From Burkholderiales bacterium (GTDB lineage Bacteria; Pseudomonadota; Gammaproteobacteria; Burkholderiales; Usitatibacteraceae): DNA of 64,000 bases. Below, piece after piece: positions 26,564-64,000 of the stretch. Position 1 is the stretch's first letter; the number at the start of each line of letters is the position of its first letter. The stretch lies in the NCBI GenBank assembly GCA_025360815.1, contig JANYBL010000109.1:1-64000 (forward strand), written 5' to 3'. The position numbers and the translations under genes are program-made. Under the pieces are notes generated by a model. The model was not told where the DNA came from. It saw only the letters and a program-made list of their open reading frames with translations, and did not search any database.

Positions 26564-26823
26564 TTTGTCCTACCGATGGTATCGAGCCGATGGTTGATAG
26601 GTCCGTTGTTTACCGGTGTATCGCCAGCCTATAATTGAGATTGTATCTTTACCGAAGGCTAGGCCTCGCGATGACAAACCAGCTTCGCTGCCTTTACAAT
26701 TTGCCGCCTTATGCGATGCCTGTTCCGCGATGGTACGCTTCCGGATTGTGCAAACTCAGTTGCTAATCGTGCTATGCCCGTTGGTGCGATGTCTTTTTTT
26801 GCTTTTTTTGGGATGATGTGGCC

Positions 26824-43491: not shown

Positions 43492-43495
43492 AATT

Positions 43496-43511
43496 TCAAA
43501 CAATCGTTTGA
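43496..43511. promoter_or_regulatory. Palindromic operator TCAAAC-N4-GTTTGA (PsrA-like)
   Basis: TCAAAC and GTTTGA form a perfect inverted repeat around AATC. The core CAAAC-N4-GTTTG fits the (G/C)AAAC-N2-4-GTTT(G/C) site described for PsrA, a fatty-acid responsive TetR regulator of Pseudomonas. It is 44 bp upstream of a TetR gene that leads a beta-oxidation cluster, so autoregulation is likely. That the binding protein is this TetR is inference. Confidence 0.7.
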
Positions 43512-43555: not shown

Positions 43556-44296
43556 ATGGCTTTAAGTTCCGTCGTCCCTTCCGTTTCCCGATTGCCAAAA
43601 TTGGCTGAGCAAGCCACAGAAAGGCCGAATGAAGTTGATACCAAGTCGCGTATTTTGGATGCGGCCGAAGAGCTGTTTATGGAGCACGGTTTTGAGGCGA
43701 CTTCACTGCGCTTGATTACGACAGCGGCGAGTGTGAATTTGGCGGCGGCGAATTATCACTTTGGCTCAAAAGAGGAATTGTTCCAAGCAGTGCTCACCCG
43801 CCGGCTTGATCCGATGAATCAGGATCGCATGGCGCTCTTGACTGCCTACGAAACCGCCAGCGGCGGGACGGCACTGACTTGCGAAAAAATTATTTCAGCT
43901 ATGTTTATTCCCGCGTTGAAATTAGCGCGTAATCACGATCAGGGCGGCAAAAATTTTCTACGATTGTTGGGACGCGCTTATGCCGATCCAGCGCCGTTTA
44001 TTCGCGAATTTCTGTCGAATCAATATGCAGCGATGATCGCGCGCTTTCGCGCCGCTTTCGGCCGGGCATTGCCGCACTTGGAGCGTGAGGAAGTCTCTTG
44101 GCGGCTGCATTTTGTGATGGGTGCGCTGTCGTACACCTTGGCGGGAACCGACGCGCTGAAAATGATTGCGCAGTTTCATCCCGAAGAAATCAACAACGAT
44201 GAACTATTGCTTAAACGCTTGGCGCCTTTTTTGGCGGCTGGGCTTCGCGCGCCGGTGCAGGCGACTGATTCGCACCAGTGGTTTCAGGAAACTTAG
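43556..44296 (+). CDS. TetR-family regulator of fatty-acid degradation (PsrA-like)
   Basis: A 246-residue regulator. The N-terminal helix-turn-helix spans about residues 28-75: KSRILDAAEELFMEHGFEATSLRLITTAASVNLAAANYHFGSKEELFQAVL. The NLAAANYHFGSKEELF form and the C-terminal AHxAF-like region (EVSWRLHFVMGALSYTLAGTDALK) are close to PsrA-type TetR proteins, which release DNA on binding long-chain fatty acids or acyl-CoA. The gene is directly upstream of fadE and has a palindromic site at its promoter. No SD is evident before the ATG at 43556, so the start, or the translation level, is uncertain; the first 25 residues are not part of the domain. Confidence 0.88.
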   Translation: MALSSVVPSVSRLPKLAEQATERPNEVDTKSRILDAAEELFMEHGFEATSLRLITTAASVNLAAANYHFGSKEELFQAVLTRRLDPMNQDRMALLTAYETASGGTALTCEKIISAMFIPALKLARNHDQGGKNFLRLLGRAYADPAPFIREFLSNQYAAMIARFRAAFGRALPHLEREEVSWRLHFVMGALSYTLAGTDALKMIAQFHPEEINNDELLLKRLAPFLAAGLRAPVQATDSHQWFQET

Positions 44297-44424: not shown

Positions 44425-46908
44425 ATGACGATTCTAGTTTGTGTCATCGTTGCCATTGTCCTCATCTGGGCGCTGGCATATTACGCGGTTAGCGCCGCAA
44501 TCTGGTCCGCAGCGGTTGGCGTGACGCTCGTGGTAGCGACCGCGACGGACGTGCTTTCCGGCGCGCTAGCCGGCTTGGTATGGTTTATATTTTTAGCCGT
44601 TTCGGTGGTGGCAAGTGTTAAATCGCTGCGCCTTAGCCTGCTCACGGTTCCCATTTTTGCAATGTACAAAAAAGTTTTGCCGCAAATGTCGGATACCGAG
44701 CGCGATGCCTTAGAGGCCGGCACGGTCTGGTGGGACGGCGATTTGTTTTCCGGCAAACCGGATTGGAACAAATGGCTGAACGTCCCTAAAGCAAAATTGA
44801 CGGCGGAAGAGCAAGCTTTTATTGATGGCCCCACCAATGAATTGTGCGCGATGATCGATGAGTGGAAAACCACCCATGAGCTGCACGATCTGGAGCCGAA
44901 AGTCTGGCAGTTCATCAAAGACAACGGTTTCTTGGGCATGATTATCCCCAAGGAATATGGCGGCAAAGGGTTTTCAGCATACGGTCACAGCCAATGTGTG
45001 ATGAAAATTTCCACCCGTTCCGCTACCGCGGCCGTTTCAGTCATGGTGCCGAATTCTCTCGGCCCCGGCGAATTGTTGATGCACTACGGAACCGCAGCGC
45101 AAAAAGATTATTATCTGCCACGCCTCGCCAAAGGGCTGGAGATTCCGTGCTTCGCCCTGACCGCGCCAGAAGCGGGATCTGACGCGGCTTCAATGCCCGA
45201 TACCGGTATCGTTTGCACGCAAATGTGGGACGGCAAACAAACGCTTGGTTTGCGGGTCACATGGGAAAAGCGCTACATTACGCTAGGTCCGGTGGCGACG
45301 ATTTTGGGACTGGCGTTTAAGTGTTTTGACCCTGATAAATTGATCGGGAGCGAAACCGATTTGGGTATCACCTGCGCATTGATTCCGACATCACACAAGG
45401 GCGTCAATATTGGTCGCCGTCATATGACGCTTAACGCCGCGTTCATGAATGGCCCAAACTCCGGTAAGGACGTGTTCATCCCGATGGATTGGGTGATCGG
45501 CGGGCAGCCAATGGTCGGCCAAGGTTGGCGTATGTTGATGGAATGTTTGGCTGCAGGCCGCTCGATTTCATTGCCCGCACAATCAATTGCAGCGGGCAAA
45601 GTGGCCGCGTTTGCGTCGGGTGCATACTCGCGGGTTCGCCAGCAATTCAAAATGCCGATCGGTAAGTTTGAGGGCATCGAGGAGCCATTGGCACGAATCG
45701 GTGCAACGACATACATGATTGATGCGATCCGTACTATCACGGCAGGTGCGCTGGATTTGGGCGAGAAGCCGTCAGTACTCTCGGCCATTTCGAAATACCA
45801 TGCAACCGAAGCCATGCGCATCATGGTCAACGACGCGATGGATATTCACGGTGGCAAAGGTATTTGCATGGGGCCGAATAATTATCTGGGACGCGCCTAT
45901 CAACAAGTGCCGATTGCCATCACGGTCGAAGGCGCCAACATTTTGACGCGCTCACTCATCATCTTTGGCCAAGGCGCGATTCGTTGCCATCCTTGGGTGC
46001 TGAAAGAAATGAAAGCTGCGCGTGAAGACAGCGTCGATGCTTTCGATCATGCATTCTGGAATCACATCAAATTCACGATCTCGAACGCGGCACGCTCGCT
46101 TTGGATGGGCATCACCGGCGGCGTCGGCATGCCCGCCCCGGCCTGTCCTGAAACCAAGCGTTTCTACCAACAGATGACGCGTTTCTCATCGGCCTTTGCG
46201 CTGCTTGCGGACACGTCGATGTTCATCATTGGTGGCTCGTTGAAGCGCAAAGAAAAACTCTCTGCACGCTTGGGTGATGTGTTGTCGAATCTCTATTTGG
46301 CCTCCTGCGCATTGAAGTTTTACGACGAACGCGGCCAGCAAAAAGATGAATTGCCACTGCTTAAATGGGCGCTCTACGACTGCTCGTTCAAGATTCAAGT
46401 GGCGATGGATGGTGTAATCGCCAACTTCCCAAACCGCCCCGTCGCATGGATTTTGCGCCGCCTAGTGTTCCCGAAAGGATTGACGCTGATTAAGCCATCG
46501 GATGAAATGGGGCATGAGGTCGCCAAGATTTTAATCAACCCATCAGCCGCACGGGATCGTTTGGTTGCGGGTATGTATTTGCCCACCGATGAGCGCGACA
46601 TCATGGGGCATTTGAACGCCGCGATGAACGCGGTAATTGCCGCCGAACCGGTGGAATCGAAGGTCCGCGCCGCGCAGCGCGCGGGGCGCTTTCGCGTTGC
46701 CACACCGGATGCCATGTTCGATGAGGCGATGCAGTTGTCGATCATCTCTGAAACCGAATTGGCGCTCTGGAAACGCGCACGTGTGATGACCAAACAAGTC
46801 GTTGCCGTGGATGATTTTGACAAAAACTTTGGCTTGGCCGTCATGCCGGCAAACACGACTGCGGATGATTGGAAAAACGACCATTCCGAAGCGATGGCTG
46901 CTGAATAA
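44425..46908 (+). CDS. fadE: Acyl-CoA dehydrogenase FadE
   Basis: An 827-residue membrane-associated acyl-CoA dehydrogenase. Two hydrophobic segments occupy residues 1-60, as in E. coli FadE. The FAD-dependent core includes FLGMIIPKEYGGKGFSAYG, ALTAPEAGSDAASMPDTGIV and MDIHGGKGICMGPNNYLGRAYQ, and a C-terminal FadE-specific domain (DUF1974) follows. It performs the first step of beta-oxidation, acyl-CoA to trans-2-enoyl-CoA. The ATG at 44425 has GAAGGAG 5 nt upstream; the frame is open back to 44278 but that part is not protein-like. It is 128 bp after the TetR gene. Confidence 0.95.
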   Translation: MTILVCVIVAIVLIWALAYYAVSAAIWSAAVGVTLVVATATDVLSGALAGLVWFIFLAVSVVASVKSLRLSLLTVPIFAMYKKVLPQMSDTERDALEAGTVWWDGDLFSGKPDWNKWLNVPKAKLTAEEQAFIDGPTNELCAMIDEWKTTHELHDLEPKVWQFIKDNGFLGMIIPKEYGGKGFSAYGHSQCVMKISTRSATAAVSVMVPNSLGPGELLMHYGTAAQKDYYLPRLAKGLEIPCFALTAPEAGSDAASMPDTGIVCTQMWDGKQTLGLRVTWEKRYITLGPVATILGLAFKCFDPDKLIGSETDLGITCALIPTSHKGVNIGRRHMTLNAAFMNGPNSGKDVFIPMDWVIGGQPMVGQGWRMLMECLAAGRSISLPAQSIAAGKVAAFASGAYSRVRQQFKMPIGKFEGIEEPLARIGATTYMIDAIRTITAGALDLGEKPSVLSAISKYHATEAMRIMVNDAMDIHGGKGICMGPNNYLGRAYQQVPIAITVEGANILTRSLIIFGQGAIRCHPWVLKEMKAAREDSVDAFDHAFWNHIKFTISNAARSLWMGITGGVGMPAPACPETKRFYQQMTRFSSAFALLADTSMFIIGGSLKRKEKLSARLGDVLSNLYLASCALKFYDERGQQKDELPLLKWALYDCSFKIQVAMDGVIANFPNRPVAWILRRLVFPKGLTLIKPSDEMGHEVAKILINPSAARDRLVAGMYLPTDERDIMGHLNAAMNAVIAAEPVESKVRAAQRAGRFRVATPDAMFDEAMQLSIISETELALWKRARVMTKQVVAVDDFDKNFGLAVMPANTTADDWKNDHSEAMAAE

Positions 46909-48276: not shown

Positions 48277-48335
48277 ACTAGTGCTAGAGCGCGTTTCCAA
48301 GCATAAATGCCTGAAAAAGCGCTCTAATGCTAGTG
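48277..48335. repeat. Imperfect long inverted repeat between thiolase and FadJ-like genes
   Basis: TAGAGCGC (48285-48292) and GCGCTCTA (48319-48326) are perfect 8-bp arms around a 26-nt loop. Outer CTAG/CTAG pairs and flanking AAAA-C/G-TTTT sequences extend the stem with a bulge. The hairpin could end or attenuate transcription from fadE, or be a regulator or mobile-repeat remnant; there is no clean T-tract typical of an intrinsic terminator, although GTGTTTTACTG follows. Confidence 0.6.
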
Positions 48336-48383
48336 TTTTACTGTTGCTGCGCACAAAAAAATTTCGACAACTCGGAGCACGCA

Positions 48384-50426
48384 ATGCAAACTTGGAAACA
48401 CTGGCGACTCGAATTTTCTCCCGAAGATAGTCTAGCGTGGCTTTACTTCGATAAATCCTACGCTGATCAATCGGAGACCACGAACACGTTTTCGAGCGAG
48501 GCGCTGCGTGAACTATCGGCTGTTTGCTCAGAATTAAAAGCCCGTCCGCCATCGGGCTTGGCTATCTTGTCGGCCAAAGAAAACGGCTTTGCGGCTGGTG
48601 CGGATATTGATGAATTCACCTCGTTCAAAACGCCCGATGAGGCCTATGCCATGACGGTATTAGGCAATGAAGTCTTCGACGACATTGCCGCGCTGCCGTT
48701 CCCCACGCTTGCCCTGATACATGGCTTCTGCATGGGCGGTGGCACTGAACTCGCATTGGCGTGCTGCTATCGCATCATGGATGATGGTCCGAAATCAAAA
48801 ATGGCGTTGCCCGAAGTGATGATCGGCATTGTGCCAGGGTGGGGTGGCGCTAAACGCATGCCCGTGCTGATCGGCGCCGCGCAGGCGTTGGACTTGATGC
48901 TGACAGGTCGAAGTGTGGATGGAAAAAAAGCGTTGCGTATGGGCTTGGTCGACGCGGTGACACCGCGCCGTCATTTTATCAATGCTGCTAAAACGTTATT
49001 GCATAAACCGCCCGCACCACATCAGCCGGCGTTCAAAGACGCCATCACAAACTGGCCCGTAATTCGCGGCATTATTGCCAGCCAATCGCGCAAGCAAGTC
49101 GCTAAGCGAGCCCGCCAAGATCACTACCCCGCGCCTTACGCGATTATTGACTTGTGGGAAAACTTCGGCGGCGATCCGCGTCAGGTACCGCGCGAAAGTC
49201 CGTCGTCGCTGTTCAGTTTGGCCGCGCATCCGACGACAGCGAATCTGATCCGCATTTTCAAATTGCAGGATCGCATGAAGGCGCTCGGTGGAGATGGGAG
49301 TGGCAAAAGCGGAGGCATCCAACATGTTCACGTCATCGGTGCCGGCGTGATGGGGGGCGATATCGCTGCATGGTGCGCGATGCGCGGTTTAAAAGTGACG
49401 CTGCAAGACCTTGAACATGCCCGCATTGCGCCCGCGATTGCGCGTGCGGCTGCGTTATATAAAAAGCGTTTGAAGTTACCGCATTTGGTGCAGGCGGCGA
49501 TGGATCGTCTGATACCGGACGTGGCCGGTAACGGCGTGGCGCATTGTGATCTGGTGATTGAGGCGATTGTTGAAAACGCCGACATTAAGAAAACGCTGTA
49601 CGCGGCAATTGAGCCAAGAATGAGGCTAGGCGCCATTCTTGCGAGCAACACCTCGTCCATTCCGCTGCATGAATTATCGGTTGGATTAATGCGTCCAGAG
49701 TGCTTGGTCGGGATTCATTTTTTTAATCCGGTAGCGCAAATGATGTTAGTGGAAATTGTCGAAGGCGCACAAACATCTGCCGAAGTAATGAAACGTGCAC
49801 AAGCGTTTGTGAAAAAAATCGACAAACTGCCGCTGCCCGTAAAGTCTGCCCCCGGCTTTTTGGTAAACCGTATCCTCACGCCTTACATGACGGAAGCGCA
49901 GATCATGTTGGAAGAAGGCATTCCAGCAGAAACCATTGATGCGGCCGCGAAGGAGTTTGGAATGCCAATGGGCCCGATTGAATTGGCCGATGTGGTGGGT
50001 CTGGATGTTGGCTTGGCGGTGGGAACAGAGCTTCACAAGCCGGGAAATCCACAGCCGAAGAAAATCCAGGAATTGGTTGCCGCAAAAAAATTGGGCAAAA
50101 AATCCGGTGAGGGATTTTATAATTGGATCGATGGTAAAGCGCAAAAATCGCACGGTTCCGGCACGGTCGATCTGGCACCGCTATGGATGCGCATGACATT
50201 GCCGGCGGTGAACGAAGCCGTTGCCTGTGTTCGCGAAGGCATCGTCGCGGATGCCGATTTATGCGATGCAGGTGTGATTTTCGGCACCGGCTTCGCGCCC
50301 CATCGCGGCGGTCCGGTTCAGTATTTGCGCTCGGTCGGTAAAGAAAAACTGCTGGCCGAGATGAAGGTGCTGGAAGAAAAATATGGCCAGCGGTTTACGG
50401 CAGACACGGGCTGGGCGACGATTTAG
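48384..50426 (+). CDS. FadJ-like bifunctional enoyl-CoA hydratase / 3-hydroxyacyl-CoA dehydrogenase
   Basis: A 680-residue enzyme with the hydratase first. Residues of about 10-200 are a crotonase domain (GFAAGADIDEF, HGFCMGGGTELALACCYRI, LPEVMIGIVPGWGGAKRMP). From about residue 314 there is an NAD-binding dehydrogenase domain (VHVIGAGVMGGDIAAWCAMRG, ASNTSSIPL, GIHFFNPVAQMMLVEIV), then the C-terminal dehydrogenase domains. This is the FadB/FadJ order. The ATG at 48384 with CGGAGC upstream gives the normal N-terminus; the frame is open to 48327. It works with the FadI-like thiolase upstream. Confidence 0.94.
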   Translation: MQTWKHWRLEFSPEDSLAWLYFDKSYADQSETTNTFSSEALRELSAVCSELKARPPSGLAILSAKENGFAAGADIDEFTSFKTPDEAYAMTVLGNEVFDDIAALPFPTLALIHGFCMGGGTELALACCYRIMDDGPKSKMALPEVMIGIVPGWGGAKRMPVLIGAAQALDLMLTGRSVDGKKALRMGLVDAVTPRRHFINAAKTLLHKPPAPHQPAFKDAITNWPVIRGIIASQSRKQVAKRARQDHYPAPYAIIDLWENFGGDPRQVPRESPSSLFSLAAHPTTANLIRIFKLQDRMKALGGDGSGKSGGIQHVHVIGAGVMGGDIAAWCAMRGLKVTLQDLEHARIAPAIARAAALYKKRLKLPHLVQAAMDRLIPDVAGNGVAHCDLVIEAIVENADIKKTLYAAIEPRMRLGAILASNTSSIPLHELSVGLMRPECLVGIHFFNPVAQMMLVEIVEGAQTSAEVMKRAQAFVKKIDKLPLPVKSAPGFLVNRILTPYMTEAQIMLEEGIPAETIDAAAKEFGMPMGPIELADVVGLDVGLAVGTELHKPGNPQPKKIQELVAAKKLGKKSGEGFYNWIDGKAQKSHGSGTVDLAPLWMRMTLPAVNEAVACVREGIVADADLCDAGVIFGTGFAPHRGGPVQYLRSVGKEKLLAEMKVLEEKYGQRFTADTGWATI

Positions 50427-50533: not shown

Positions 50534-51049
50534 ATGAATAAAATCCAAAACCTCTGGCAAAGACTCTCGACAAAGCCGCTTGGAAAATGGCTTTTCTCGC
50601 GTGCAGTGTGCTTCAAGGCACCATATTTTGCGACCATCAAACCACGCTTTGAAGAGATGCGACCCGGCTACGCCAAAGTCAGCATGAAAAACAGGCGCAG
50701 TGTGCAAAACCATATCCAATCCATCCACGCGATTGCGATGTGCAATTTGGCCGAGGTTGGAGCAGGGACAATGATGGAAGCGAGCCTTTCCAACAAAATG
50801 CGCTGGCTACCGCGTGGTATGACGGTGCAATATCTCAAGGTCGCAAAAACGGACATTATTGCCGAGTGTGTGGCCGCCGATATTGCAGACGGCCCCGCAC
50901 GCGACGTGATGGTTAAATGTGATATCAAGGATGCAACCGGGAACATCGTTTGCCATGCGGATATTGCGATGTATATCAGCCCGCGTAAAGAGGGGGCAGC
51001 TGCACTGAAAAGTAACACGGGGCATCTAAGAACGGCTAAGAACGTATAA
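50534..51049 (+). CDS. DUF4442 hotdog-fold protein
   Basis: A 171-residue protein matching DUF4442, a hotdog-fold family related to PaaI-type thioesterases: FEEMRPGYAKVSMKNRRSVQNHIQSIHAIAMCNLAEVGAGTMM, then TVQYLKVAKTDIIAEC, then VMVKCDIKDATGNIVCHADIAMYI. Function is not established, but its place between beta-oxidation and acyl-CoA synthetase genes argues for acyl-CoA hydrolysis or binding. No signal peptide. It is 107 bp after the FadJ-like gene. Confidence 0.85.
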   Translation: MNKIQNLWQRLSTKPLGKWLFSRAVCFKAPYFATIKPRFEEMRPGYAKVSMKNRRSVQNHIQSIHAIAMCNLAEVGAGTMMEASLSNKMRWLPRGMTVQYLKVAKTDIIAECVAADIADGPARDVMVKCDIKDATGNIVCHADIAMYISPRKEGAAALKSNTGHLRTAKNV

Positions 51050-51118: not shown

Positions 51119-52945
51119 TTGGCAGCTGTAAATTTGGAAAATCGGCGTGGCACGCGCTATCTAATGTTCGACGAAGCTGCGACGGTTGCTGATGTGTTCG
51201 CGTTGCGTTGCCGCACCTCGCCAAACGCACCTGCCTATCGCGATTTTGATGGCCCATCCAAAGCATGGATTGGCTGTAGCTGGCGCGAGATTGGCGATAA
51301 AGTGATGTTGATGCGCGAGGGACTGCGTCGCGATGGTTTCCAATCAGGCGAGCGCCTCGCCATCATGCTCAAAAATTCCAGCAACTGGGTGCTAGCCGAC
51401 CAAGGCGCGTTTGCTCATGGGATGGTGCCGGTGCCGTTGTTCGCCGATGATCGCCCAGACAACGTCGCATTTATTTTGAACGATGCCGATGTGAAAGCCA
51501 TTGTCATTGACGGCGAAGAACACTGGAAACGGCTCAAAACTGTTCGCGAGCAACTTGGTACATTGAAGCTGATTTTAACGATAAAACCGGTAATCGACGC
51601 AGATGAACCGCGTCTAAAATCGCTCGCCGATTGGTTGCCATCCAACGCGGGATTGATCGAGCGTGCGCCGACTAAAGGCAGCGATTTGGCAACGATTGTT
51701 TATACCAGCGGCACCACGGGAAAATCAAAAGGCGTGATGCTTTCGCATCGTAATATTCTCTCAAATGTGCAATCGGGCTTATGCGTTTACGATATTTATC
51801 CGGATGATGTTTTCTTGTCATTTCTGCCGCTCTCTCATATGTTTGAACGTACCTGTGATTATTATTTGAATATGGTCTCAGGTGCCTCTATTGCGTTCTC
51901 GCGCTCGATTCCGCAGCTTGCGGAAGATTTTCGTACTATTCAGCCGACGATTATTTTTTCCGTGCCGCGTATTTATGAACGCTTCTTGGCCGCTATCAAC
52001 GACCAGCTTAAAAAGGCATCGCCCGCCAAACGGAAGCTGTTTGATTTTGCAGTCAAAACCGGCTGGACAAAATTTGAATTTGAGCACGGCCGCGGCAGCT
52101 GGAGCCCATCGTTTTTGCTGTGGCCAATTCTGAAAAAATTGGTTGCTGAAAAATTGCTGGCCCGGATGGGCGGCAAATTAAAGTTTGCGATTTCCGGTGG
52201 CGCGGCACTCTCGCCGGATGTTGCGAAAGTGTTCGTCGGCTTGGGGTTGCCGATTTGCCAAGGCTATGGCTTGTCAGAAGCTAGTCCTTTGTTGACTGTC
52301 AATTTGCTCGAAAAAAACAATCCCACGACAATTGGTCCGGCTGTGCCGGGCGTGGCGCTGCGCGTCGGTGAGAACGGTTGTTTGTTTGCGAAGGGCCCGA
52401 ACATCATGATGGGCTATTGGAATAATCCGGAGGCCACACGCGCGGTACTAAGTGAAGACGGTTGGCTCAACACCGGTGACCAAGCGAACATTGATGCGCA
52501 GGGATTTGTTCGCATCACCGGCCGATTAAAGGAAATTATTGTCATGGGTAACGGCGAAAAAATTCCGCCGGTTGACATGGAATTGGCGATTCAACTTGAC
52601 CCTTTGTTTGAGCAAATTTTGATTTTTGGTGAGGCTAAACCTTACCTGTCGGCCGTGGCTGTTTTGAACGATGATGAATGGGGACGGGCGGCGCATGAAA
52701 ATAAACTCGATCCCAATTTATCCGGGGCTGGCCGCGATAAAGCCGAGAAATTTTTGGTGCAGCGCATTACCAAGCGTATCAAATGTTTCCCCGGCTACGC
52801 GCAGGTACGTAAGGTCGCGATTGCGCCGGAAAAATGGACTATTGATAACGGACTCATGACGCCTACGCTTAAATTAAAGCGCAATGTTATTTTCCAAAAA
52901 TACGCCCCTGAGATTGATGAGATGTACAAAGGACATACTTTATGA
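51119..52945 (+). CDS. Long-chain acyl-CoA synthetase (AMP-forming)
   Basis: A 608-residue adenylate-forming enzyme. The P-loop-like motif YTSGTTGKSKG is at about 195-205. LPLSHMFERTCDYY, the ATP motif QGYGLSEASPLLTVN and the hinge region GWLNTGDQANIDAQGFVRITGRLKEIIVMGNGEKIPP follow. These match long-chain fatty-acid CoA ligases (FAA1/AMP-binding type). It would activate free fatty acids before FadE. The TTG start is supported by AGGAG 7 nt upstream. The last 4 bp overlap the thioesterase gene, so the ligase and an acyl-CoA hydrolase are co-made. Confidence 0.92.
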   Translation: MAAVNLENRRGTRYLMFDEAATVADVFALRCRTSPNAPAYRDFDGPSKAWIGCSWREIGDKVMLMREGLRRDGFQSGERLAIMLKNSSNWVLADQGAFAHGMVPVPLFADDRPDNVAFILNDADVKAIVIDGEEHWKRLKTVREQLGTLKLILTIKPVIDADEPRLKSLADWLPSNAGLIERAPTKGSDLATIVYTSGTTGKSKGVMLSHRNILSNVQSGLCVYDIYPDDVFLSFLPLSHMFERTCDYYLNMVSGASIAFSRSIPQLAEDFRTIQPTIIFSVPRIYERFLAAINDQLKKASPAKRKLFDFAVKTGWTKFEFEHGRGSWSPSFLLWPILKKLVAEKLLARMGGKLKFAISGGAALSPDVAKVFVGLGLPICQGYGLSEASPLLTVNLLEKNNPTTIGPAVPGVALRVGENGCLFAKGPNIMMGYWNNPEATRAVLSEDGWLNTGDQANIDAQGFVRITGRLKEIIVMGNGEKIPPVDMELAIQLDPLFEQILIFGEAKPYLSAVAVLNDDEWGRAAHENKLDPNLSGAGRDKAEKFLVQRITKRIKCFPGYAQVRKVAIAPEKWTIDNGLMTPTLKLKRNVIFQKYAPEIDEMYKGHTL

Positions 52946-53376
52946 GCGCCAGCGAAGCAATTAAAACCAACGACGAGGGTAGTTCGTTTTGCCCTCTCAT
53001 CGAATTGCCAAAAGATCAAATTCCCACTATTCGCATCATCCCGATGCCGGCGGACACCAATGCCAACGGAACTATTTTTGGTGGCTGGGTGATGGCGCAG
53101 GTTGATTTGGCGGGCAGCGTGCCGGCGAGTGAGCGTGCGATGGGGCGGGTTGTGACGGTTGCGGTGAATTCGTTTTTATTTAAGGAGCCGGTTTTTGTCG
53201 GTGATTTGGTGAGTTTCTACGCAAAGGTCGTTAAAACAGGGCGCACCTCGATCACGGTTGACGTTGAAGTCTATGCGCAGCGCCAGCGCTTTGGTTCCGA
53301 GATCGTGAAAGTGACCGAGGCAGTGCTGACCTATGTGGCGATCGACGAGAACCATAAGCCGCGGGCATTGATTTGA
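52942..53376 (+). CDS. Acyl-CoA thioesterase (YciA-like hotdog)
   Basis: A 144-residue hotdog thioesterase. The motif MPADTNANGTIFGGWVMAQVDLAGSVPA is nearly identical in YciA/BFIT-like enzymes, with the catalytic Asp-side loop present; EPVFVGDLVSFYAKVVKTGRTSITVDVEVYA follows. It hydrolyses short- to long-chain acyl-CoA in the cytosol. Its ATG lies in the synthetase stop codon (ATGA). With the ligase it could set the free acid/acyl-CoA balance, which is inference. Confidence 0.92.
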   Translation: MSASEAIKTNDEGSSFCPLIELPKDQIPTIRIIPMPADTNANGTIFGGWVMAQVDLAGSVPASERAMGRVVTVAVNSFLFKEPVFVGDLVSFYAKVVKTGRTSITVDVEVYAQRQRFGSEIVKVTEAVLTYVAIDENHKPRALI

Positions 53377-56055: not shown

Positions 56056-57258
56056 ATGAAGCAAATTCAAGAAGCGTACATTGTTGCGGTCACCCGCACG
56101 CCGGTCGGCAAAGCGCCGCGTGGGATGTTTAAAAATGTTCGTCCTGACGACATGCTCGCGCACGTATTGCGCGCCGCAATTGCGCAAGTGCCGGGGCTTG
56201 ATCCGCACGACATCGGTGACGTGGTCGTCGGTTGCGCGATGCCTGAAGGCGAGCAGGGCATGAACGTGGCGCGGATTGGCGTGCTGCAGGCCGGGCTGCC
56301 GGATTCAATACCGGCGGTGACGATCAATCGGTTTTGTTCATCCGGCGTACAGGCGATTAGTATGGCGGCGGATCGGATTCGTTGCGGGGACGACGATGTG
56401 GTGATTGCAGCGGGAACGGAGTCGATGTCGATGGTGCCGATGATGGGTAATAAAATCGCATTGAATAGTGATGTGTTTAATACCGCACATCACGAAAACA
56501 TCGCTATTGCCTACGGCATGGGGATCACCGCTGAAAAGGTTGCCGAACAGTGGAAAGTAAGCCGCGAAGAGCAGGATCAATTCGCGGCAGCATCGCACGC
56601 CAAGGCGACTGCGGCGATTGCCGCCGGCCATTTCAAAGCCGAAATTTCACCCTATGAAATCAATAACGCCGCGCCCGATTTGACCAGCGGCGCGATTAAA
56701 TACAAAACAAAAACCGCTGATAACGATGAAGGCCCGCGTCCGGATTCGACGGCTGAATCGCTCGCGAAACTGCGACCGGTGTTTGCGGCAAAGGGCAGCG
56801 TAACGGCGGGCAATTCATCGCAAATGTCGGACGGTGCTGGTGCCGTGATTTTAATGAGCGAGGCGGCGCTAAAAAAATACAGTATCCAACCGCTCGCGAG
56901 ATTTGTCTCATTCGCCGTGGCTGGTGTGCCCGCCGAAATCATGGGTATTGGCCCGATCAAGGCGATCCCGAAAGTACTGCGGCAAGCGGGGCTGAAGCAA
57001 CAGGATTTAGGTTGGATTGAATTAAACGAAGCGTTTGCTGCGCAAGCGCTGGCCGTGACCAAGGAGCTCGACCTTGATCCAGCCAAAATCAATCCGCTCG
57101 GTGGCGCGATTGCGCTGGGGCATCCGCTCGGCGCCACGGGCGCAATCCGCGCTGCAACGCTCATACACGGCATGCGCCGCACTAAACAAAAGTGGGGCAT
57201 GGTGACTATGTGTATCGGCACGGGCATGGGCGCAGCTGGGTTGTTTGAGGTACTTTGA
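56056..57258 (+). CDS. fadA: Acetyl-CoA acyltransferase FadA (thiolase)
   Basis: A 400-residue thiolase. The acyl-binding cysteine is C94 in NRFCSSGVQAISMAA. QMSDGAGAVILMSE, NEAFAAQAL, the histidine in LGHPLGATGAIR and the second cysteine in MCIGTGMGAAG are all present. It ends the FadN/FadA pair and degrades 3-ketoacyl-CoA. A ribosome site AGGAG precedes the ATG by about 9 nt. The last codons (FEVL and the stop) lie in the first unit of a 14-bp tandem repeat that continues into the intergenic region, so the natural C-terminus may have been altered by it. Confidence 0.94.
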   Translation: MKQIQEAYIVAVTRTPVGKAPRGMFKNVRPDDMLAHVLRAAIAQVPGLDPHDIGDVVVGCAMPEGEQGMNVARIGVLQAGLPDSIPAVTINRFCSSGVQAISMAADRIRCGDDDVVIAAGTESMSMVPMMGNKIALNSDVFNTAHHENIAIAYGMGITAEKVAEQWKVSREEQDQFAAASHAKATAAIAAGHFKAEISPYEINNAAPDLTSGAIKYKTKTADNDEGPRPDSTAESLAKLRPVFAAKGSVTAGNSSQMSDGAGAVILMSEAALKKYSIQPLARFVSFAVAGVPAEIMGIGPIKAIPKVLRQAGLKQQDLGWIELNEAFAAQALAVTKELDLDPAKINPLGGAIALGHPLGATGAIRAATLIHGMRRTKQKWGMVTMCIGTGMGAAGLFEVL

Positions 57259-57626: not shown

Positions 57627-59594
57627 ATGAGTAGGTTCACTACCAACCATTCAACGAGCCGTAGCGCATTCATTCCCACCGTTAAAGTATGTGCAATGGC
57701 GGTTGGCCTAATGCTGGCATCCGCAGCTGACGCGGTGCAGTTTACTTATGAAAGCGGCGTCACCGGCAGTTTCGATTCCACGTTTTCATACGGTGTATCC
57801 CGCCGTTTGCAGGAGCCAGATCGCACATTGATTGGCATCACAAACGGTGGCTTATCGAGCTCCGTCAATGAGGACGACGGTGACCGCAACTACAAAAAAG
57901 GCAAGCTATTTGCCAATGTGCTCAAAGGCACGCATGACCTTGAAATTAAATACGAAGGCTGGAGCTTGTTCACGCGCGGCTCCTATTTCATTGATTTTGC
58001 CAACCGCAACAAAGCTTTCTTGGGTCCGATTGCCAATGATCGCCTGAGCCAAAATGCGCGTATTTTGGACGCTTTCGTGACTAAGTCATTTAACGTCGCA
58101 GATCGCAATGTTCGGGTGCGCGCCGGCAACCAAGTAATTTCTTGGGGTGAATCGACTTTTATCCCCAACAGCATTAATTCAATCAACCCGGTCGATTTGC
58201 CGAAACTCCGTACCCCGGGCTCCGAGGTGAAAGAGGCATTCTTGCCCACATCCAGCCTCTTGGTTTCTGCGGAATTGACCAAGAACGCCAGTATGGAAGC
58301 CTTTGTTTTGTTCAATCACGATAAAACCCGGATTGATCCCAAAGGTTCGTATTGGAGCAATAACGACTTTATTTCTGACGATGCCGATAAAGTTTACGTG
58401 GGTTTTGGCCGTCGTAAAGACAACACACTGCCAATCACCAATCCAAGCTCAGCTGCCGTCACATTTGGCACCTTTGGACCGTTCGATCCGGCAGCACAAG
58501 TGTGGGCGCCGCGCTCAGCTGACCGAAACGCGAGTGATAGCGGACAATTTGGTGTAACAATGCGCTATTTGGCACCTGAGCTCAACAACACCGAGTTCGG
58601 TATCTACTACTTGAACTACCATAGCCGAGTTCCGTTCGTATCTGGCTTTAAGGGCAGCACGACATCGGTGCTGACGGGAACACCGTTCTCGCCAATTTTG
58701 CCGACGACAGTACTGGCCAATTATTTTGTGCAGTATCCTGAAAACATTCGTTTGATCGGTGTTTCATTCAATACACAGGGTCCCTTGGGTGTCGCGTTGC
58801 AGGGCGAGGTTTCATATCGTCCAAACCAGCCACTAGCGCTCTCCGGAACAGAATTAGTATTGGCAACATTGGGCGCGCCAAACTTGGTCACCGGCTATCT
58901 CACAATTCCGGGTACCGTAAGCGCGGCAAATCCCTTCGGCGCATCAGCGGCGGCTCTTGTACCGAACGGCACTTATCTGCAAGGCTGGACGCGCGTCAAA
59001 ATGACCCAAGCACAGATGACTGCCACCAAAGGCATTCCGAACGTCCTCGGCGCTGATCAAGCAACCCTGGTCGGTGAAATTGGCTTTACCCGATACGGCG
59101 GATTGCAGTCCGGTCAGAAGTATAGTGGTCCTGCTACATCGCTGCCTGCAACCCTGCAAGGCGCGATTGCTGGTCAAGCGGGTGCCGTGCAAGATACCGG
59201 TTTTGTTACCGATACGTCATGGGGCTATCGTTTGGTTGGCCGTTTGGAATATTCGAACTTAGTGTTCGGCGCTAACGTTGCACCGCGCATCGCTTTTAAC
59301 CACGATGTCAAAGGTGTTTCACAAACTTTCAACGAAGGTGTTAAGTCTATATCAGTTGGTACCAACTTCGATTGGCAGCGCCGTTTCTCACTCGATTTTT
59401 CGTATTCTGGCTTCTTCGGTGGCCGTGACTACTGCGGTACTACCGTAATTACACCGGGTCAAACAACGCTGCCATTGGCGATCAACGGCTTTCCAGCGTT
59501 TGGACGTCCTGCGCAGGGTGCGGCTTATTGCTCAACTGCCAACCCGATCAAAGATCGCGACTTCGTGTCGGTTGTCGCAACTTATTCGTTCTAA
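57627..59594 (+). CDS. DUF1302 outer-membrane protein
   Basis: A 655-residue protein of the DUF1302 family. The signal peptide ends near ASAADA, and the mature part starts VQFTYESGVTGSFDSTFSYGVSRRLQ. Alternating amphipathic strands continue throughout, and it ends ATYSF with a terminal phenylalanine, as outer-membrane beta-barrels do. Family hallmarks are VRVRAGNQVISWGESTFIPNSINSINPVDLPKLRTPGSEVKEA. Its function is unknown; homologues often sit with DUF1329 and RND genes in lipid, steroid or hydrocarbon degraders. It is the first gene of the envelope set after the fad cluster. Confidence 0.9.
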   Translation: MSRFTTNHSTSRSAFIPTVKVCAMAVGLMLASAADAVQFTYESGVTGSFDSTFSYGVSRRLQEPDRTLIGITNGGLSSSVNEDDGDRNYKKGKLFANVLKGTHDLEIKYEGWSLFTRGSYFIDFANRNKAFLGPIANDRLSQNARILDAFVTKSFNVADRNVRVRAGNQVISWGESTFIPNSINSINPVDLPKLRTPGSEVKEAFLPTSSLLVSAELTKNASMEAFVLFNHDKTRIDPKGSYWSNNDFISDDADKVYVGFGRRKDNTLPITNPSSAAVTFGTFGPFDPAAQVWAPRSADRNASDSGQFGVTMRYLAPELNNTEFGIYYLNYHSRVPFVSGFKGSTTSVLTGTPFSPILPTTVLANYFVQYPENIRLIGVSFNTQGPLGVALQGEVSYRPNQPLALSGTELVLATLGAPNLVTGYLTIPGTVSAANPFGASAAALVPNGTYLQGWTRVKMTQAQMTATKGIPNVLGADQATLVGEIGFTRYGGLQSGQKYSGPATSLPATLQGAIAGQAGAVQDTGFVTDTSWGYRLVGRLEYSNLVFGANVAPRIAFNHDVKGVSQTFNEGVKSISVGTNFDWQRRFSLDFSYSGFFGGRDYCGTTVITPGQTTLPLAINGFPAFGRPAQGAAYCSTANPIKDRDFVSVVATYSF

Positions 59595-59799
59595 ACCCAA
59601 GCGGCCCGCTTCCATTTTTATAATAAGTGTCAGCGGGTTGATTGAAGTTGGCGTTTAATAGACAGGGATCCCCGAGCTTAGTTTTAGTATTTGTAGGATT
59701 TGTAAAACCTAAAATCAATCTGCGTATACGACAACAAGAACGTGGCGCTGGTTGTTCAAGAATTAATTTTAAGAATCAAACCCATAATTTGGAGGAAAA

Positions 59800-61182
59800 A
59801 TGAAAGCGAAACAACTGACGATGTTGCTGTCGGCATCACTGGGTTCATTGGTCATCGCGACCGGTGCAACCAGTGTTTACGCCCAATTGGCACCTAGCGA
59901 TATTGCTAAACTGGGCACCACCCTGACCCCGATGGGAGCAGAAAAAGCGGGTAATGCCGCTGGTACAATTCCCGCATGGGATGGCGGTATCACCAAGATT
60001 CCTGCTGGCATTACGGTCAAAGCCGCAGGTACCTACCCAGACCCCTTTGCAGCCGACAAATCTTTGTTCACCATCAGCGCGGCCAATGCCGACAAGTACA
60101 AAGACAACCTCGCTCCAGGCCAATTGGCGATGTTGAAGCAATATCCGACCTATAAATTGATGGTCTACCCAACACACCGCAGCGCTGCATATCCTGAGGG
60201 CCATTACAAAGAAACCAAAGAATGCGCGGCAAAAGCCAAGCTGGCAGCAGGTGGCAACGGTGTTCAAAACTGTGCTGGCGGCACGCCATTCCCGATTCCA
60301 AAATCGGGTGTTGAAGCTATTTGGAATCATGTGTTGCACTACAAAGGCGATACCTTTGCGCAGCATTGGTCACAAGCGGCCGTCACCGCGTCGGGCGACT
60401 TCGCCTTGGTGAAATTTGAATATGAATACGATCTTTCATACGGAAATCTTTCCAAGTCGGTCTCGCAACGCGAAAACAACAAAATTCTGAACTATCTGCA
60501 AGTCACCACTGCGCCGGCGCGTTTGGCGGGGCAAATTTTGCTGGTACACGACACAGTTGATCAGGCAAAAGAGCCACGCTCTGCATGGACGTATAACCCT
60601 GGCCAACGCCGCGTTCGTTTGGCGCCAAACGTGGCTTATGACAATCCAGGTACGGCTGCTGACGGTCTGCGCACCAATGATGATTTCGGTATGTTTAACG
60701 GCGCGACAGATCGCTACGATTGGAAACTGGTCGGTAAAAAAGAAATGTACATTCCGTACAACTCTTATCGTCTGACAGACCCCAAAGTCAAATACGCCGA
60801 TTTACTCAAGCCAGGCCACATTAATCAGGACTTGTCGCGCTATGAGTTGCACCGCGTATGGGTTGTTGATGCAACCCTCAAGGCTGGTACATCACACATT
60901 TACTCTCGCCGCACTTTCTACATCGACGAAGATAGCTGGAACGTTGTCATGATCGATAAATACGATGGTCGCGGCCAGCTGTGGCGTTTTGCCGAGTTGC
61001 ACAACGAGAACTGGTACAACGTGCCAATGTGGTTCGGTACGGTTGAGGTGCATCACGATTTGCAATCGCGTCGCTATATTGCGATGGGCTTGCGTTCAGA
61101 AGAAGCTAAGATTTACGAACCGATCAAGCGTACGCCAGCAGATTACACACCTGCCAGTTTGGCGCGTATGGGCGTTCGATAA
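59800..61182 (+). CDS. DUF1329 periplasmic protein
   Basis: A 460-residue protein of family DUF1329. A signal peptide ends near TSVYA. The mature protein begins with APSDIAKLGTTLTPMGAEKAGNAAGTIPAWDGGI, the typical N-terminus, and has PTHRSAAYPEGHYKET and DRYDWKLVGKKEMYIPYNSYRL. A LolA/LolB-like lipid-carrier fold is recalled for this family, which would fit transport of a hydrophobic molecule across the periplasm. A GGAGG SD is 6 nt before the ATG. It is 205 bp after the DUF1302 gene and ends 50 bp before a strong terminator. Confidence 0.9.
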   Translation: MKAKQLTMLLSASLGSLVIATGATSVYAQLAPSDIAKLGTTLTPMGAEKAGNAAGTIPAWDGGITKIPAGITVKAAGTYPDPFAADKSLFTISAANADKYKDNLAPGQLAMLKQYPTYKLMVYPTHRSAAYPEGHYKETKECAAKAKLAAGGNGVQNCAGGTPFPIPKSGVEAIWNHVLHYKGDTFAQHWSQAAVTASGDFALVKFEYEYDLSYGNLSKSVSQRENNKILNYLQVTTAPARLAGQILLVHDTVDQAKEPRSAWTYNPGQRRVRLAPNVAYDNPGTAADGLRTNDDFGMFNGATDRYDWKLVGKKEMYIPYNSYRLTDPKVKYADLLKPGHINQDLSRYELHRVWVVDATLKAGTSHIYSRRTFYIDEDSWNVVMIDKYDGRGQLWRFAELHNENWYNVPMWFGTVEVHHDLQSRRYIAMGLRSEEAKIYEPIKRTPADYTPASLARMGVR

Positions 61183-61497
61183 GCGACTCGGCAAAGTTAG
61201 AAATAAAACTGCCTAGTTTATTGGAACTAGATTGGGGGATAACCGCGCAACAAGTTGAGAAGCTTGCGTCGTTATCCCCCAAATTTTTAGGCTGCTCAAT
61301 GGAGTGCTTGCCGGATTTGTTGCACTAGTCAATTGCGCGAGTTGCTAGCACGACATTCGCTAGTGCAGTGGCGGCGAAATGCCGAAACAGCCTGCGGTTT
61401 GTTTGGCATTGCTCACTGTTCATCGTCTACTATTTTTTGCGCAACACACGAAATCTCTTTTTTGTATTTCCTGTTTGTATTTTTAAAAAGCCAGCCC
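61183..61497. other. Intergenic region with terminator
   Basis: These 315 bp contain a strong hairpin (61232-61289) and then about 200 bp with no gene-like content. The frame of the next gene is open up to 61333, but that part has no signal or family match and is treated as leader. Confidence 0.6.
61232..61289 (+). terminator. Strong Rho-independent terminator
   Basis: TTGGGGGATAACCGCGCAA (61232-61250) pairs with TTGCGTCGTTATCCCCCAA (61264-61282): 19 bp with one mismatch and one G-U pair, a 13-nt loop, and a following ATTTTT. It lies 50 bp after the DUF1329 stop and should end most transcription of the DUF1302-DUF1329 unit. Confidence 0.92.
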
Positions 61498-62574
61498 ATG
61501 CGCCCCTACCTGCCGAATTGTTTGATGACTAAAACCTCGCTGTCGGTACAACCAAATCCTGTGTTCAAGTGGGCACATATTTGTTTGGTCATGGCGATGT
61601 TTTCAACCCAAATTTCTGCGCAGACGGCGCAACCGCCGACATCTACCCCTGCTTCTCCATTAGTCGTAACGGCAGTTTCTGCCTCGTTACCACTGACGGG
61701 TCCGCTTTCCAAACAAACCATGTCGCGTCTGTTGATTACAGACGCCGCCAAAATCGGTAACCGTATGGTCGCTGTAGGCGATCGCGGCTTCATTGTCTAT
61801 TCCGACAGCAATGGTGAAACTTGGGAGCGCGCGCAAACGCCTCCCAACGTACCGATGCTTACATCGATATTTTTTACGGATGCCAAGACGGGCTGGGCAG
61901 TCGGACACGATACGTTCATTTTGAAATCGGTTGACGAAGGCAATTCTTGGACAAAAGCGTTTTCAGCACCCGGTGAGCAAAAACCGTTGATGAGTGTACT
62001 GTTTACCGACGTCAATACGGGCTTTGCCGTTGGGGCTTATGGCGCATTTTATGCAACAACCGATGCCGGCCAGACTTGGATCGCGCGCAAAATCAACGAT
62101 GGCGACAAGCACTTCAACAGCATCATCAAGCTCAAAGATGATCAACTTTTGATCGTCGGCGAAGCCGGTTCAATTTTGAAATCGGGGGATGGTGGCAAGA
62201 ACTGGCTAGCCGTCGCCTCACCTTACAAGGGCTCGTTCTTTGGCGCGATTCAGGCGCAAGACGGTTCGGTCATTTTGTACGGCTTGCGCGGCCGTATTTT
62301 TCGCTCGGCAGACACCGGCCTGAAGAGCTTTGGCCAGATCGATAATAAATCGACGGCATCGATCATGGGAGCCACCAAACTGTCGGATGGCGCGTTGGTG
62401 CTCACCGGTTTGGCGGGTCTGGTGTTGATCTCCTCTGACAATGGGCTCTCGTTTACCCCACTCCAGACCGCTTCGACCAAGGCGATATCCGTCGCGCTGT
62501 TAGGTCCGCCGAATGCACTGGTGTTATTCGGGGAAACCGGCGCGCGCGACGTGATGTTGCCGACAAAAAAATAG
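61498..62574 (+). CDS. YCF48/BNR-type beta-propeller protein
   Basis: A 358-residue protein. The N-terminal hydrophobic stretch FKWAHICLVMAMFSTQISAQ is a likely signal peptide. The rest consists of BNR/YCF48-like repeats such as GDRGFIVYSDSNGETWERAQ, GWAVGHDTFILKSVDEGNSWTKA, GFAVGAYGAFYATTDAGQTW and GEAGSILKSGDGGKNWLAV. These form a beta-propeller like that of photosystem assembly factor YCF48. Starts at 61498 and 61525 (both ATG) are possible, neither with a good SD. Homologues lie next to RND genes and are thought to assist them; their actual role is not established. Confidence 0.85.
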   Translation: MRPYLPNCLMTKTSLSVQPNPVFKWAHICLVMAMFSTQISAQTAQPPTSTPASPLVVTAVSASLPLTGPLSKQTMSRLLITDAAKIGNRMVAVGDRGFIVYSDSNGETWERAQTPPNVPMLTSIFFTDAKTGWAVGHDTFILKSVDEGNSWTKAFSAPGEQKPLMSVLFTDVNTGFAVGAYGAFYATTDAGQTWIARKINDGDKHFNSIIKLKDDQLLIVGEAGSILKSGDGGKNWLAVASPYKGSFFGAIQAQDGSVILYGLRGRIFRSADTGLKSFGQIDNKSTASIMGATKLSDGALVLTGLAGLVLISSDNGLSFTPLQTASTKAISVALLGPPNALVLFGETGARDVMLPTKK

Positions 62575-62655
62575 TTATCCGGCAATTATTAAAAAGCCAT
62601 CCAGGTTCCTAACCCGACCAATATACCCACGGTTTACGCTAACGCGAGCGCCCAC

Positions 62656-64000
62656 ATGAAAATCCAACAATTCATCAATACCTTCTCCGGCATTATTTTT
62701 AACAACCGAAAACTTTGGTTAATTGTTTTTGCCGTTGCGACCGCGATTTTCGCATTTTCGGCCAGCCAGCTAAAGGTTGATGCGGGCTTTAATAAAATGG
62801 TGCCCCTCAAGCACCCCTATATGCAGGTCTATAAGGACTACGAAAAAGTTTTTGGCGGCGCAAACCGGATTGCAGTCGCGCTTGTGCAAAAAGAAGGCGA
62901 TATTTACAACAAAGAATTCATGACCAAGCTTAAGGGCTTGACCGATGATGTGCGTGGGTTAGACGGTGTCGAGCAGCCTAGTGTAAGGTCGTTATTTACG
63001 CCCAACACCCGCTTTATTGAGGTGGTGGAAGAAGGCTTCGCAGGCGGTAACGTGATCCCCGCCACTTTCCAAGGCAGCGATGCTGATTTGGCGATCGTGC
63101 GCGGCAACGTCCAAAAATCGACTGAAGTTGGCCGAACCGTTGCCACCGATTTCTCGGGTGCGTTGGTATCGGCGGGTTTACTCGAATTGATTCCAAAGGG
63201 CGACGGCAAGCTCGAAAAACTCAACTATTTTGAACTCTCCGAAAAATTGGAAGCCATTCGCACAAAATACGAAGGCCCAAATCACACCGTTCACATTATT
63301 GGTTTTGCGAAAGCGGTGAGCGATATTTCGGCTGGCGCAAAGGGCGTGATCACGTTTTTTCTGGTTGCATTTTTGATCACCGCGGTCTTGTTATATTTTT
63401 TCCTTAAAGATTTAAAGCTGACCGCCATCGCGCTCATTGTTGCGATGATGCCGGTACTCTGGCTGCTCGGCACATTGCCGATTATCGGTTTTGGTATTGA
63501 CCCGTTGTCTATTCTTGTGCCGTTCTTAATTTTTTCCATCGGCGTTTCACATGCGGTGCAAATGACCAAAACGTGGGAGCGCAATGTGACTGCTGGGGCA
63601 GATAGTTTGTCGGCCGCAAAGCACTCGTTTGCCAGTTTGTTCGTGCCGGGCACACTAGCGCTGCTCACCAACGTATTGGGTTTTGCCGTCATTATGCTGA
63701 TCCCGATTGATATCGTGCGTGAGTTGGGCATTACTGCATCGCTGGGGGTGGCATGGATGATTGTCACGAACAAAATGATGCTGCCGATTCTGCTGTCGTA
63801 TCTAGAACTATCGCCACGCGCAAAAGAGCTTAGAATTCGCCAAGAGAGTCGTGTTGATAGGCTCTGGCGCGCCGCTTCACGTTGTGCCGATAAAAAGGTC
63901 GCTTTGTGGGTTGTCGCCTTTAGTACGATTGTGATGGTTGTCGGCTTGTTTCAAGCCCACAATTTAAAAATTGGTGATTACGGCACAGGCGTGCCGGAGC
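62656..64000 (+). CDS. RND/MMPL-family transporter, N-terminal part (partial)
   Basis: The gene runs out of the window after 448 codons. A first transmembrane helix (LWLIVFAVATAIFAF) is followed by a periplasmic domain of about 180 residues. A block of helices follows from about residue 225: GVITFFLVAFLITAVLLYFF, LTAIALIVAMMPVLWLLG, GFGIDPLSILVPFLIFSIGVSHAVQM and SLGVAWMIVTNKMMLPILL. The last ones form the sterol-sensing-like bundle with the GIDPLS motif of MMPL/HpnN proteins. Such proteins export lipids or hydrophobic molecules using the proton gradient. It follows the YCF48-like gene by 81 bp. Confidence 0.9.
   Translation, partial: MKIQQFINTFSGIIFNNRKLWLIVFAVATAIFAFSASQLKVDAGFNKMVPLKHPYMQVYKDYEKVFGGANRIAVALVQKEGDIYNKEFMTKLKGLTDDVRGLDGVEQPSVRSLFTPNTRFIEVVEEGFAGGNVIPATFQGSDADLAIVRGNVQKSTEVGRTVATDFSGALVSAGLLELIPKGDGKLEKLNYFELSEKLEAIRTKYEGPNHTVHIIGFAKAVSDISAGAKGVITFFLVAFLITAVLLYFFLKDLKLTAIALIVAMMPVLWLLGTLPIIGFGIDPLSILVPFLIFSIGVSHAVQMTKTWERNVTAGADSLSAAKHSFASLFVPGTLALLTNVLGFAVIMLIPIDIVRELGITASLGVAWMIVTNKMMLPILLSYLELSPRAKELRIRQESRVDRLWRAASRCADKKVALWVVAFSTIVMVVGLFQAHNLKIGDYGTGVPE

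Follow-up and report, generated by a model that had tools for sequence, protein, structure and literature searches.

What does a four-part trans-envelope machine carry, and in which direction, when its genes stand behind a fatty-acid oxidation island? This question is raised by a contig (C63, JANYBL010000109.1; 133,519 bp) in the 3.74 Mb genome (completeness 99.99%) of a Burkholderiales bacterium of the Usitatibacteraceae. The window, that is, the whole stretch of DNA analysed here, comprises the first 64,000 bases of this contig. A Pfam search of the window placed the genes for a DUF1302 protein, a DUF1329 protein, a YCF48-type propeller and an RND permease next to each other, in this order and on the + strand. 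This bears out an earlier sequence-only reading, which saw a barrel, a LolA-like periplasmic protein, a propeller and an RND/MMPL permease in succession. DUF1302 and DUF1329 proteins are widespread and recur in degraders of oil, terpenes and aromatic compounds, and their direction of transport is not agreed. With these four genes, the AmeABCD-type trans-envelope RND systems, a kind already known, gain a new member. New is the genomic context: the cassette lies beside a fad island in a genome without FadL. We read it as a conduit of the AmeABCD type that handles long-chain acyl substrates, with import likelier than export; this combined reading, in which we infer both cargo and direction, is held at about even confidence.

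The four cassette genes and their association

57627..59594, + strand: AmeA-like DUF1302 (PF06980) predicted outer-membrane barrel, 655 aa, with signal peptide; 535 bits, full length
59800..61182, + strand: AmeB-like DUF1329 (PF07044) predicted periplasmic carrier, 460 aa, with signal peptide; 507 bits, LolA_like 38 bits
61525..62574, + strand: AmeC-like YCF48/BNR-repeat protein; PSII_BNR 67 bits in two stretches, signal peptide judged by eye
62656..64000 in the window (62656-64989 on the contig), + strand: AmeD-like HAE3/MMPL-type RND permease, 777 aa; MMPL 81 bits

PF06980 is the sole Pfam match of the DUF1302 protein, which has a hydrophobic segment at its N-terminus. The YCF48 open reading frame as listed opens at TTG 61333 and a start at 61498 is possible; ATG 61525 is preferred because it gives a better signal peptide and a length that matches relatives. 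The window edge cuts the RND gene, and the contig holds the full open reading frame. The top NCBIfam model of the permease is HAE3 TIGR00921 (145 bits, under the model cut-off of 352), its MMPL match is above the Pfam cut-off and hydropathy did not cleanly resolve 12 helices. Relatives in the PDB are MmpL4/5, HpnN, MmpL3 and NCR1; the sterol permease BstA is also among the RND relatives. In transmembrane helix 10 (TM10), the pair Asp686-Tyr687 is invariant among 19 orthologues, with Ser298-His299 as the TM4 counterpart in the alignment. By likeness to MmpL and HpnN proteins, the proton path would run via TM10.

The structure model of the DUF1329 protein (predicted local distance difference test, pLDDT, 90.5) has a LolA fold. 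It is similar to LolA3 of Porphyromonas gingivalis (TMt 0.84), to the DUF1329 structure 4z48 (TMt 0.73) and to further LolA-like proteins, so that the fold which the sequence-only reading gave for the family is recovered in the predicted structure. The model of the DUF1302 protein (pLDDT 76.8) has 18 long strands by our own count.

Co-occurrence was evaluated in a class-wide sample of 140 genomes, with roughly one genome for each family, and with cut-offs of at least 300 bits for DUF1302 and DUF1329 and at least 400 bits for the RND permease. DUF1302 occurred in 20 of the 140 genomes, DUF1329 in exactly those 20, and the RND permease was confined to 19 of these (p ~1e-22 to 1e-24, without correction for phylogeny). 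The families therefore occur together far beyond chance, the very point on which the sequence-only reading had offered itself for refutation. In 19 of the 20 genomes, no more than 6 kb separates the DUF1302 and DUF1329 genes, and the order of the four genes recurs in the majority of the distant loci of the class-wide sample. That the four genes form one machine, as had been proposed, is well supported because near-perfect co-occurrence and adjacency are joined by published deletion, co-fitness and co-folding data on the same gene set (PMC6394551, PMC10866462).

The closest counterpart is AmeABCD of Castellaniella defragrans. Both systems share the four families, their order on a single strand, an RND permease (HAE3-type in AmeABCD, with HAE3 as the top model here), signal peptides and the setting in an island for the catabolism of a hydrophobic substrate; the likeness rests on family composition and gene order. 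Unlike AmeABCD, which lies in a monoterpene island, the present cassette is beside a fad island with a PsrA-like regulator. The 18 strands of the DUF1302 model suggest a larger barrel than in AmeA, which was inferred to be OpcA-like (PMC6394551). Pseudomonas putida has a comparable set of DUF1302, DUF1329, periplasmic protein and RND permease, split over two loci (PP_0765/PP_0766 and PP_2018/PP_2019) instead of one cassette. All four homologues are essential there on the acyl ester Tween 20, and the DUF1329 protein has predicted contacts with both barrel and RND permease, co-folding in part (PMC10866462). With acyl-substrate fitness and a co-complex prediction, both among the checks proposed before, already published for P. 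putida, the earlier statement that the families have no settled function was too pessimistic.

Other counterparts are more remote. The 'Nanopod' cluster of ORM2a, an anaerobic benzene degrader, combines a porin-like protein, DUF1329, a YCF48-related protein and an MMPL transporter in one cluster with additional genes, including a universal stress protein (PMC13101534). Betaproteobacterial aromatic regulons contain the same gene set (PMC6449761), and the first two members, DUF1302 and DUF1329, also occur in a Delftia phenanthrene cluster (PMC3110197). HpnN, BstABC and MmpL3 have detectable RND homology to the cassette permease and a lipid cargo, and act in export or lipid placement. We know of no DUF1302 barrel or YCF48 partner of HpnN, BstABC or MmpL3.

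The fatty-acid island and FadL in the family

Upstream of the cassette, a fatty-acid oxidation island is encoded entirely on the + strand, with a PsrA-like TetR regulator at its head:

43495..43511, no strand assigned: candidate PsrA-type operator TTCAAACAATCGTTTGA, 45 nt before the regulator start
43556..44296, + strand: PsrA-like TetR regulator; TetR_C_30 112 bits, best PDB match 2fbq (E 2e-36)
44425..46908, + strand: FadE-type acyl-CoA dehydrogenase (frame opens at GTG 44278); ACDH_C 360 bits, NF007000 1158 bits
46923..48200, + strand: thiolase (Pfam)
48327..50426, + strand: FadJ/FadB-type fatty-acid oxidation alpha subunit (Pfam); FadJ model 498 bits, below cut-off
50534..51049, + strand: DUF4442 hot-dog-type protein; Pfam 164 bits
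51062..52945, + strand: FadD-like acyl-CoA ligase; AMP-binding 239 bits, top models are long-chain ligases
52942..53376, + strand: 4HBT acyl-CoA thioesterase; Pfam 65 bits
53500..55893, + strand: second 3-hydroxyacyl-CoA dehydrogenase/crotonase fusion; NF052272 611 bits, below cut-off
56056..57258, + strand: thiolase, final gene before the cassette (open reading frame; orthologues adjoin the cassette in relatives, and the copy of L111 is a thiolase by Pfam)

The final thiolase confirms that acyl-CoA genes precede the cassette; the direct succession assumed before needs a correction, as 368 nt separate its end (57258) from the DUF1302 start (57627). The top NCBIfam model of the regulator is PsrA, matched over the full length (190 bits, under the cut-off of 300). 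The candidate operator fits the published PsrA site C/GAAAC-N2-4-GTTTG/C (PMC13104628). Such sites number 2 in the window against 1.75 expected, a count close to chance; therefore the site is suggestive solely through its place at the promoter of the regulator itself. A motif scan of the window found no PsrA operator upstream of the cassette. Long-chain acyl compounds are the probable signal on which the regulator induces the fad island.

The linkage of cassette and fad island is conserved within the family: wherever the available sequence of a family locus reaches far enough, it shows fad genes ahead of the cassette. Among named loci, the closest DUF1329 proteins (81-85% identity) come from metagenome-assembled genomes (MAGs) labelled Burkholderiales, Betaproteobacteria, Nitrosomonadaceae or Rhodocyclaceae, which makes the host a betaproteobacterium by the older definition. 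Beyond the family, Azonexus hydrophilus (L037) has, in this order, a TetR_C_30 regulator, FadE, thiolase, FadJ, the cassette, FadB and a thiolase, so that the cassette stands within the fad operon, and in two Desulfobacterota-type MAGs (the 'Deltaproteobacteria' MAG L042 and the Geobacteraceae MAG L046) FadD, FadB, thiolase and a dehydrogenase come after the cassette. Genes inserted between the fad genes and the cassette code for a lipase in the distant genome L132 and for a penicillin-amidase-family acylase in the family member L109. Such an acylase adjoins the cassette in two separate lineages (L109, 4224-6587; L126, 13613-16516).

The PF03349 (FadL/TodX) profile had no match in this 99.99% complete genome. 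Strong FadL is missing in 17 of the 18 other family genomes, the exception being a 73% complete genome, and DUF1329 is present in all 18. With a complete fad island, an attached cassette and no masking effect of FadL, the genome is a clean test case.

Cargo and direction of transport

Molecules with long acyl chains, either free fatty acids or esters, would enter via the DUF1302 barrel. The DUF1329 protein would carry them over the periplasm, and the proton-driven RND permease, for which the YCF48 propeller may serve as scaffold, would deliver them to, or insert them into, the inner membrane. FadD and the fad enzymes could then consume the imported molecules. NPC1 and NPC2 are a precedent for an RND system that receives its cargo from a soluble carrier and works towards the membrane. 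In this bacterium, the cargo is likely long-chain acyl. Inward working is the leading reading, moderately ahead of export, and merits about even confidence. A more general and doubtful extension is that in FadL-less bacteria the AmeABCD-type system could be a dedicated long-chain fatty-acid importer, independent of FadL and directed inward by analogy with NPC2/NPC1. Fatty-acid import would explain lipid feeding of FadL-less bacteria and would make the cassette RND protein a bacterial RND permease working inward. The likeness to FadL concerns the proposed role only, outer-membrane entry of long-chain fatty acids: FadL belongs to another family (PF03349) and needs no carrier or RND partner, and its barrel has 14 strands compared with about 18 in the DUF1302 model.

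Several observations weigh against an acyl importer. Most class-wide cassettes have no fatty-acid genes nearby and their neighbours vary; such genes lie near 4-5 of the 20 loci and near none of the 15 control stretches, which included two short ones. The acyl link is therefore a property of certain lineages and not of the machine family, and a universal tie to fatty-acid genes was rejected. Related AmeABCD acts on monoterpenes. The acyl substrate proposed earlier is thus supported by context for this lineage, with its PsrA-type regulator, conserved fad island and lack of FadL, and not for the class. P. putida has FadL as well as this gene set. On the side of an acyl importer, strong FadL (E <= 1e-40) is rarer with the cassette, in 3 of 20 cassette genomes versus 61 of 120 others (Fisher p 0.003) and, among FadE-bearing genomes, in 2 of 14 versus 44 of 72 (p 0.002), with a threshold picked after the data were seen and p values that are not corrected for phylogeny. 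The contrast is gone when all weak Toluene_X hits are counted (12/20 versus 82/120, p 0.45). Due to the post hoc threshold and the kinship left out of the model, the FadL contrast is only a lead. A strict replacement of FadL was rejected, as strong FadL occurs in three cassette genomes and, in the Nitrospirae MAG L035, FadL is the divergent neighbour of the cassette.

The structure model of the barrel does not favour either direction. The DUF1302 model aligned best with Occ/BenF-type porins (Z ~23) and with the alginate exporter AlgE (Z ~22). Resembling uptake porins and an exporter alike, the barrel gives no verdict, and its fold was dropped as an arbiter of direction with both groups at Z above 20. 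FadL is absent among the structures listed for the model, which is no proof of a difference, and a PDB sequence search with the DUF1302 alignment had no match.

The strongest alternative is the same machine working outward. It would pump excess fatty acids or other hydrophobic molecules from the inner membrane and periplasm and thereby protect the feeding cell, a possibility to be taken seriously, with less confidence than import. HAE3/MmpL relatives of known function, HpnN, MmpL3 and MmpL4/5, export lipids, and AmeABCD itself was reported as an exporter: its deletion lowers the tolerance to the monoterpene limonene and raises Nile Red accumulation (PMC6394551). The similar sets of aromatic regulons were interpreted as solvent protection (PMC6449761). 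However, the evidence for export by AmeABCD is indirect, a dye accumulation under uncoupler, and growth of an ameB mutant on perillic acid was poor as well (PMC4109377). The need of P. putida for all four homologues on Tween 20 fits uptake at least equally (PMC10866462). Export also leaves the uptake of long-chain fatty acids in a FadL-less genome unexplained.

Less probable, and rather unlikely, is a cassette whose cargo, a lipid or hydrophobic product such as an envelope lipid, has nothing to do with fatty-acid breakdown, the fad island being just a stable neighbour. The position of most class-wide cassettes outside fad contexts, beside varied genes, fits this explanation, as do the RND relatives HpnN (hopanoids) and BstA (sterols). 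Yet the fad link is kept in the family and recurs with other gene orders in Azonexus and the two Desulfobacterota-type MAGs, and the published phenotypes all concern growth with hydrophobic substrates. Two merely adjoining modules, barrel with carrier and propeller with permease, are very improbable: the first pair stands alone locally in 32 of 69 evaluable loci, mostly of Pseudomonas and Marinobacter, and a strong hairpin splits the modules here, but barrel, carrier and permease are still together in 19 of 20 genomes, and the split modules of P. putida share phenotypes and a predicted mutual contact (PMC10866462).

The intergenic hairpin and further loci

61232..61282, + strand: candidate partial terminator or processing site in the gap from DUF1329 to YCF48, formed by a long hairpin with T-rich DNA behind it

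The hairpin stretch has a folding energy of -43.6 kcal/mol (z -5.1), and none of 200 shuffles was as good. Strong hairpins with other stem sequences are located at the same place in most family loci examined (L106, L107, L108, L109, L110, L112, L113, L114, L120 and L122). The hairpin may lower the expression of the YCF48-RND pair relative to the DUF1302-DUF1329 pair.

In Marinobacter loci, the DUF1302-DUF1329 pair has a thiolase-like gene immediately upstream in the same orientation, and no YCF48 or RND gene was found nearby (L051, L056, L064, L066, L075, L078, L080, L085, L087, L094, L102 and L104). The genomes G053, G126, G108 and G163 each have at least five DUF1302 and at least six DUF1329 matches, which hints at substrate-specific paralogues. 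In G049, G061, G078, G082, G091 and G095, weak DUF1302-like matches are no more than a few kb away from weak DUF1329/LolA-like ones, and in most of these genomes a distant RND match (~20% identity) is nearby as well. These genomes suggest a second, distant branch of systems with barrel, LolA-fold carrier and RND permease.

Antisense open reading frames in GC-rich gaps of the relatives, mostly without a Pfam match, were judged spurious. A BLAST search of plasmids gave nothing beyond partial DUF1329 or RND matches. Elsewhere in the window, two adjacent genes for family-5 extracellular solute-binding proteins (SBP_bac_5, 24923-28434) mark an ordinary peptide-type uptake locus.

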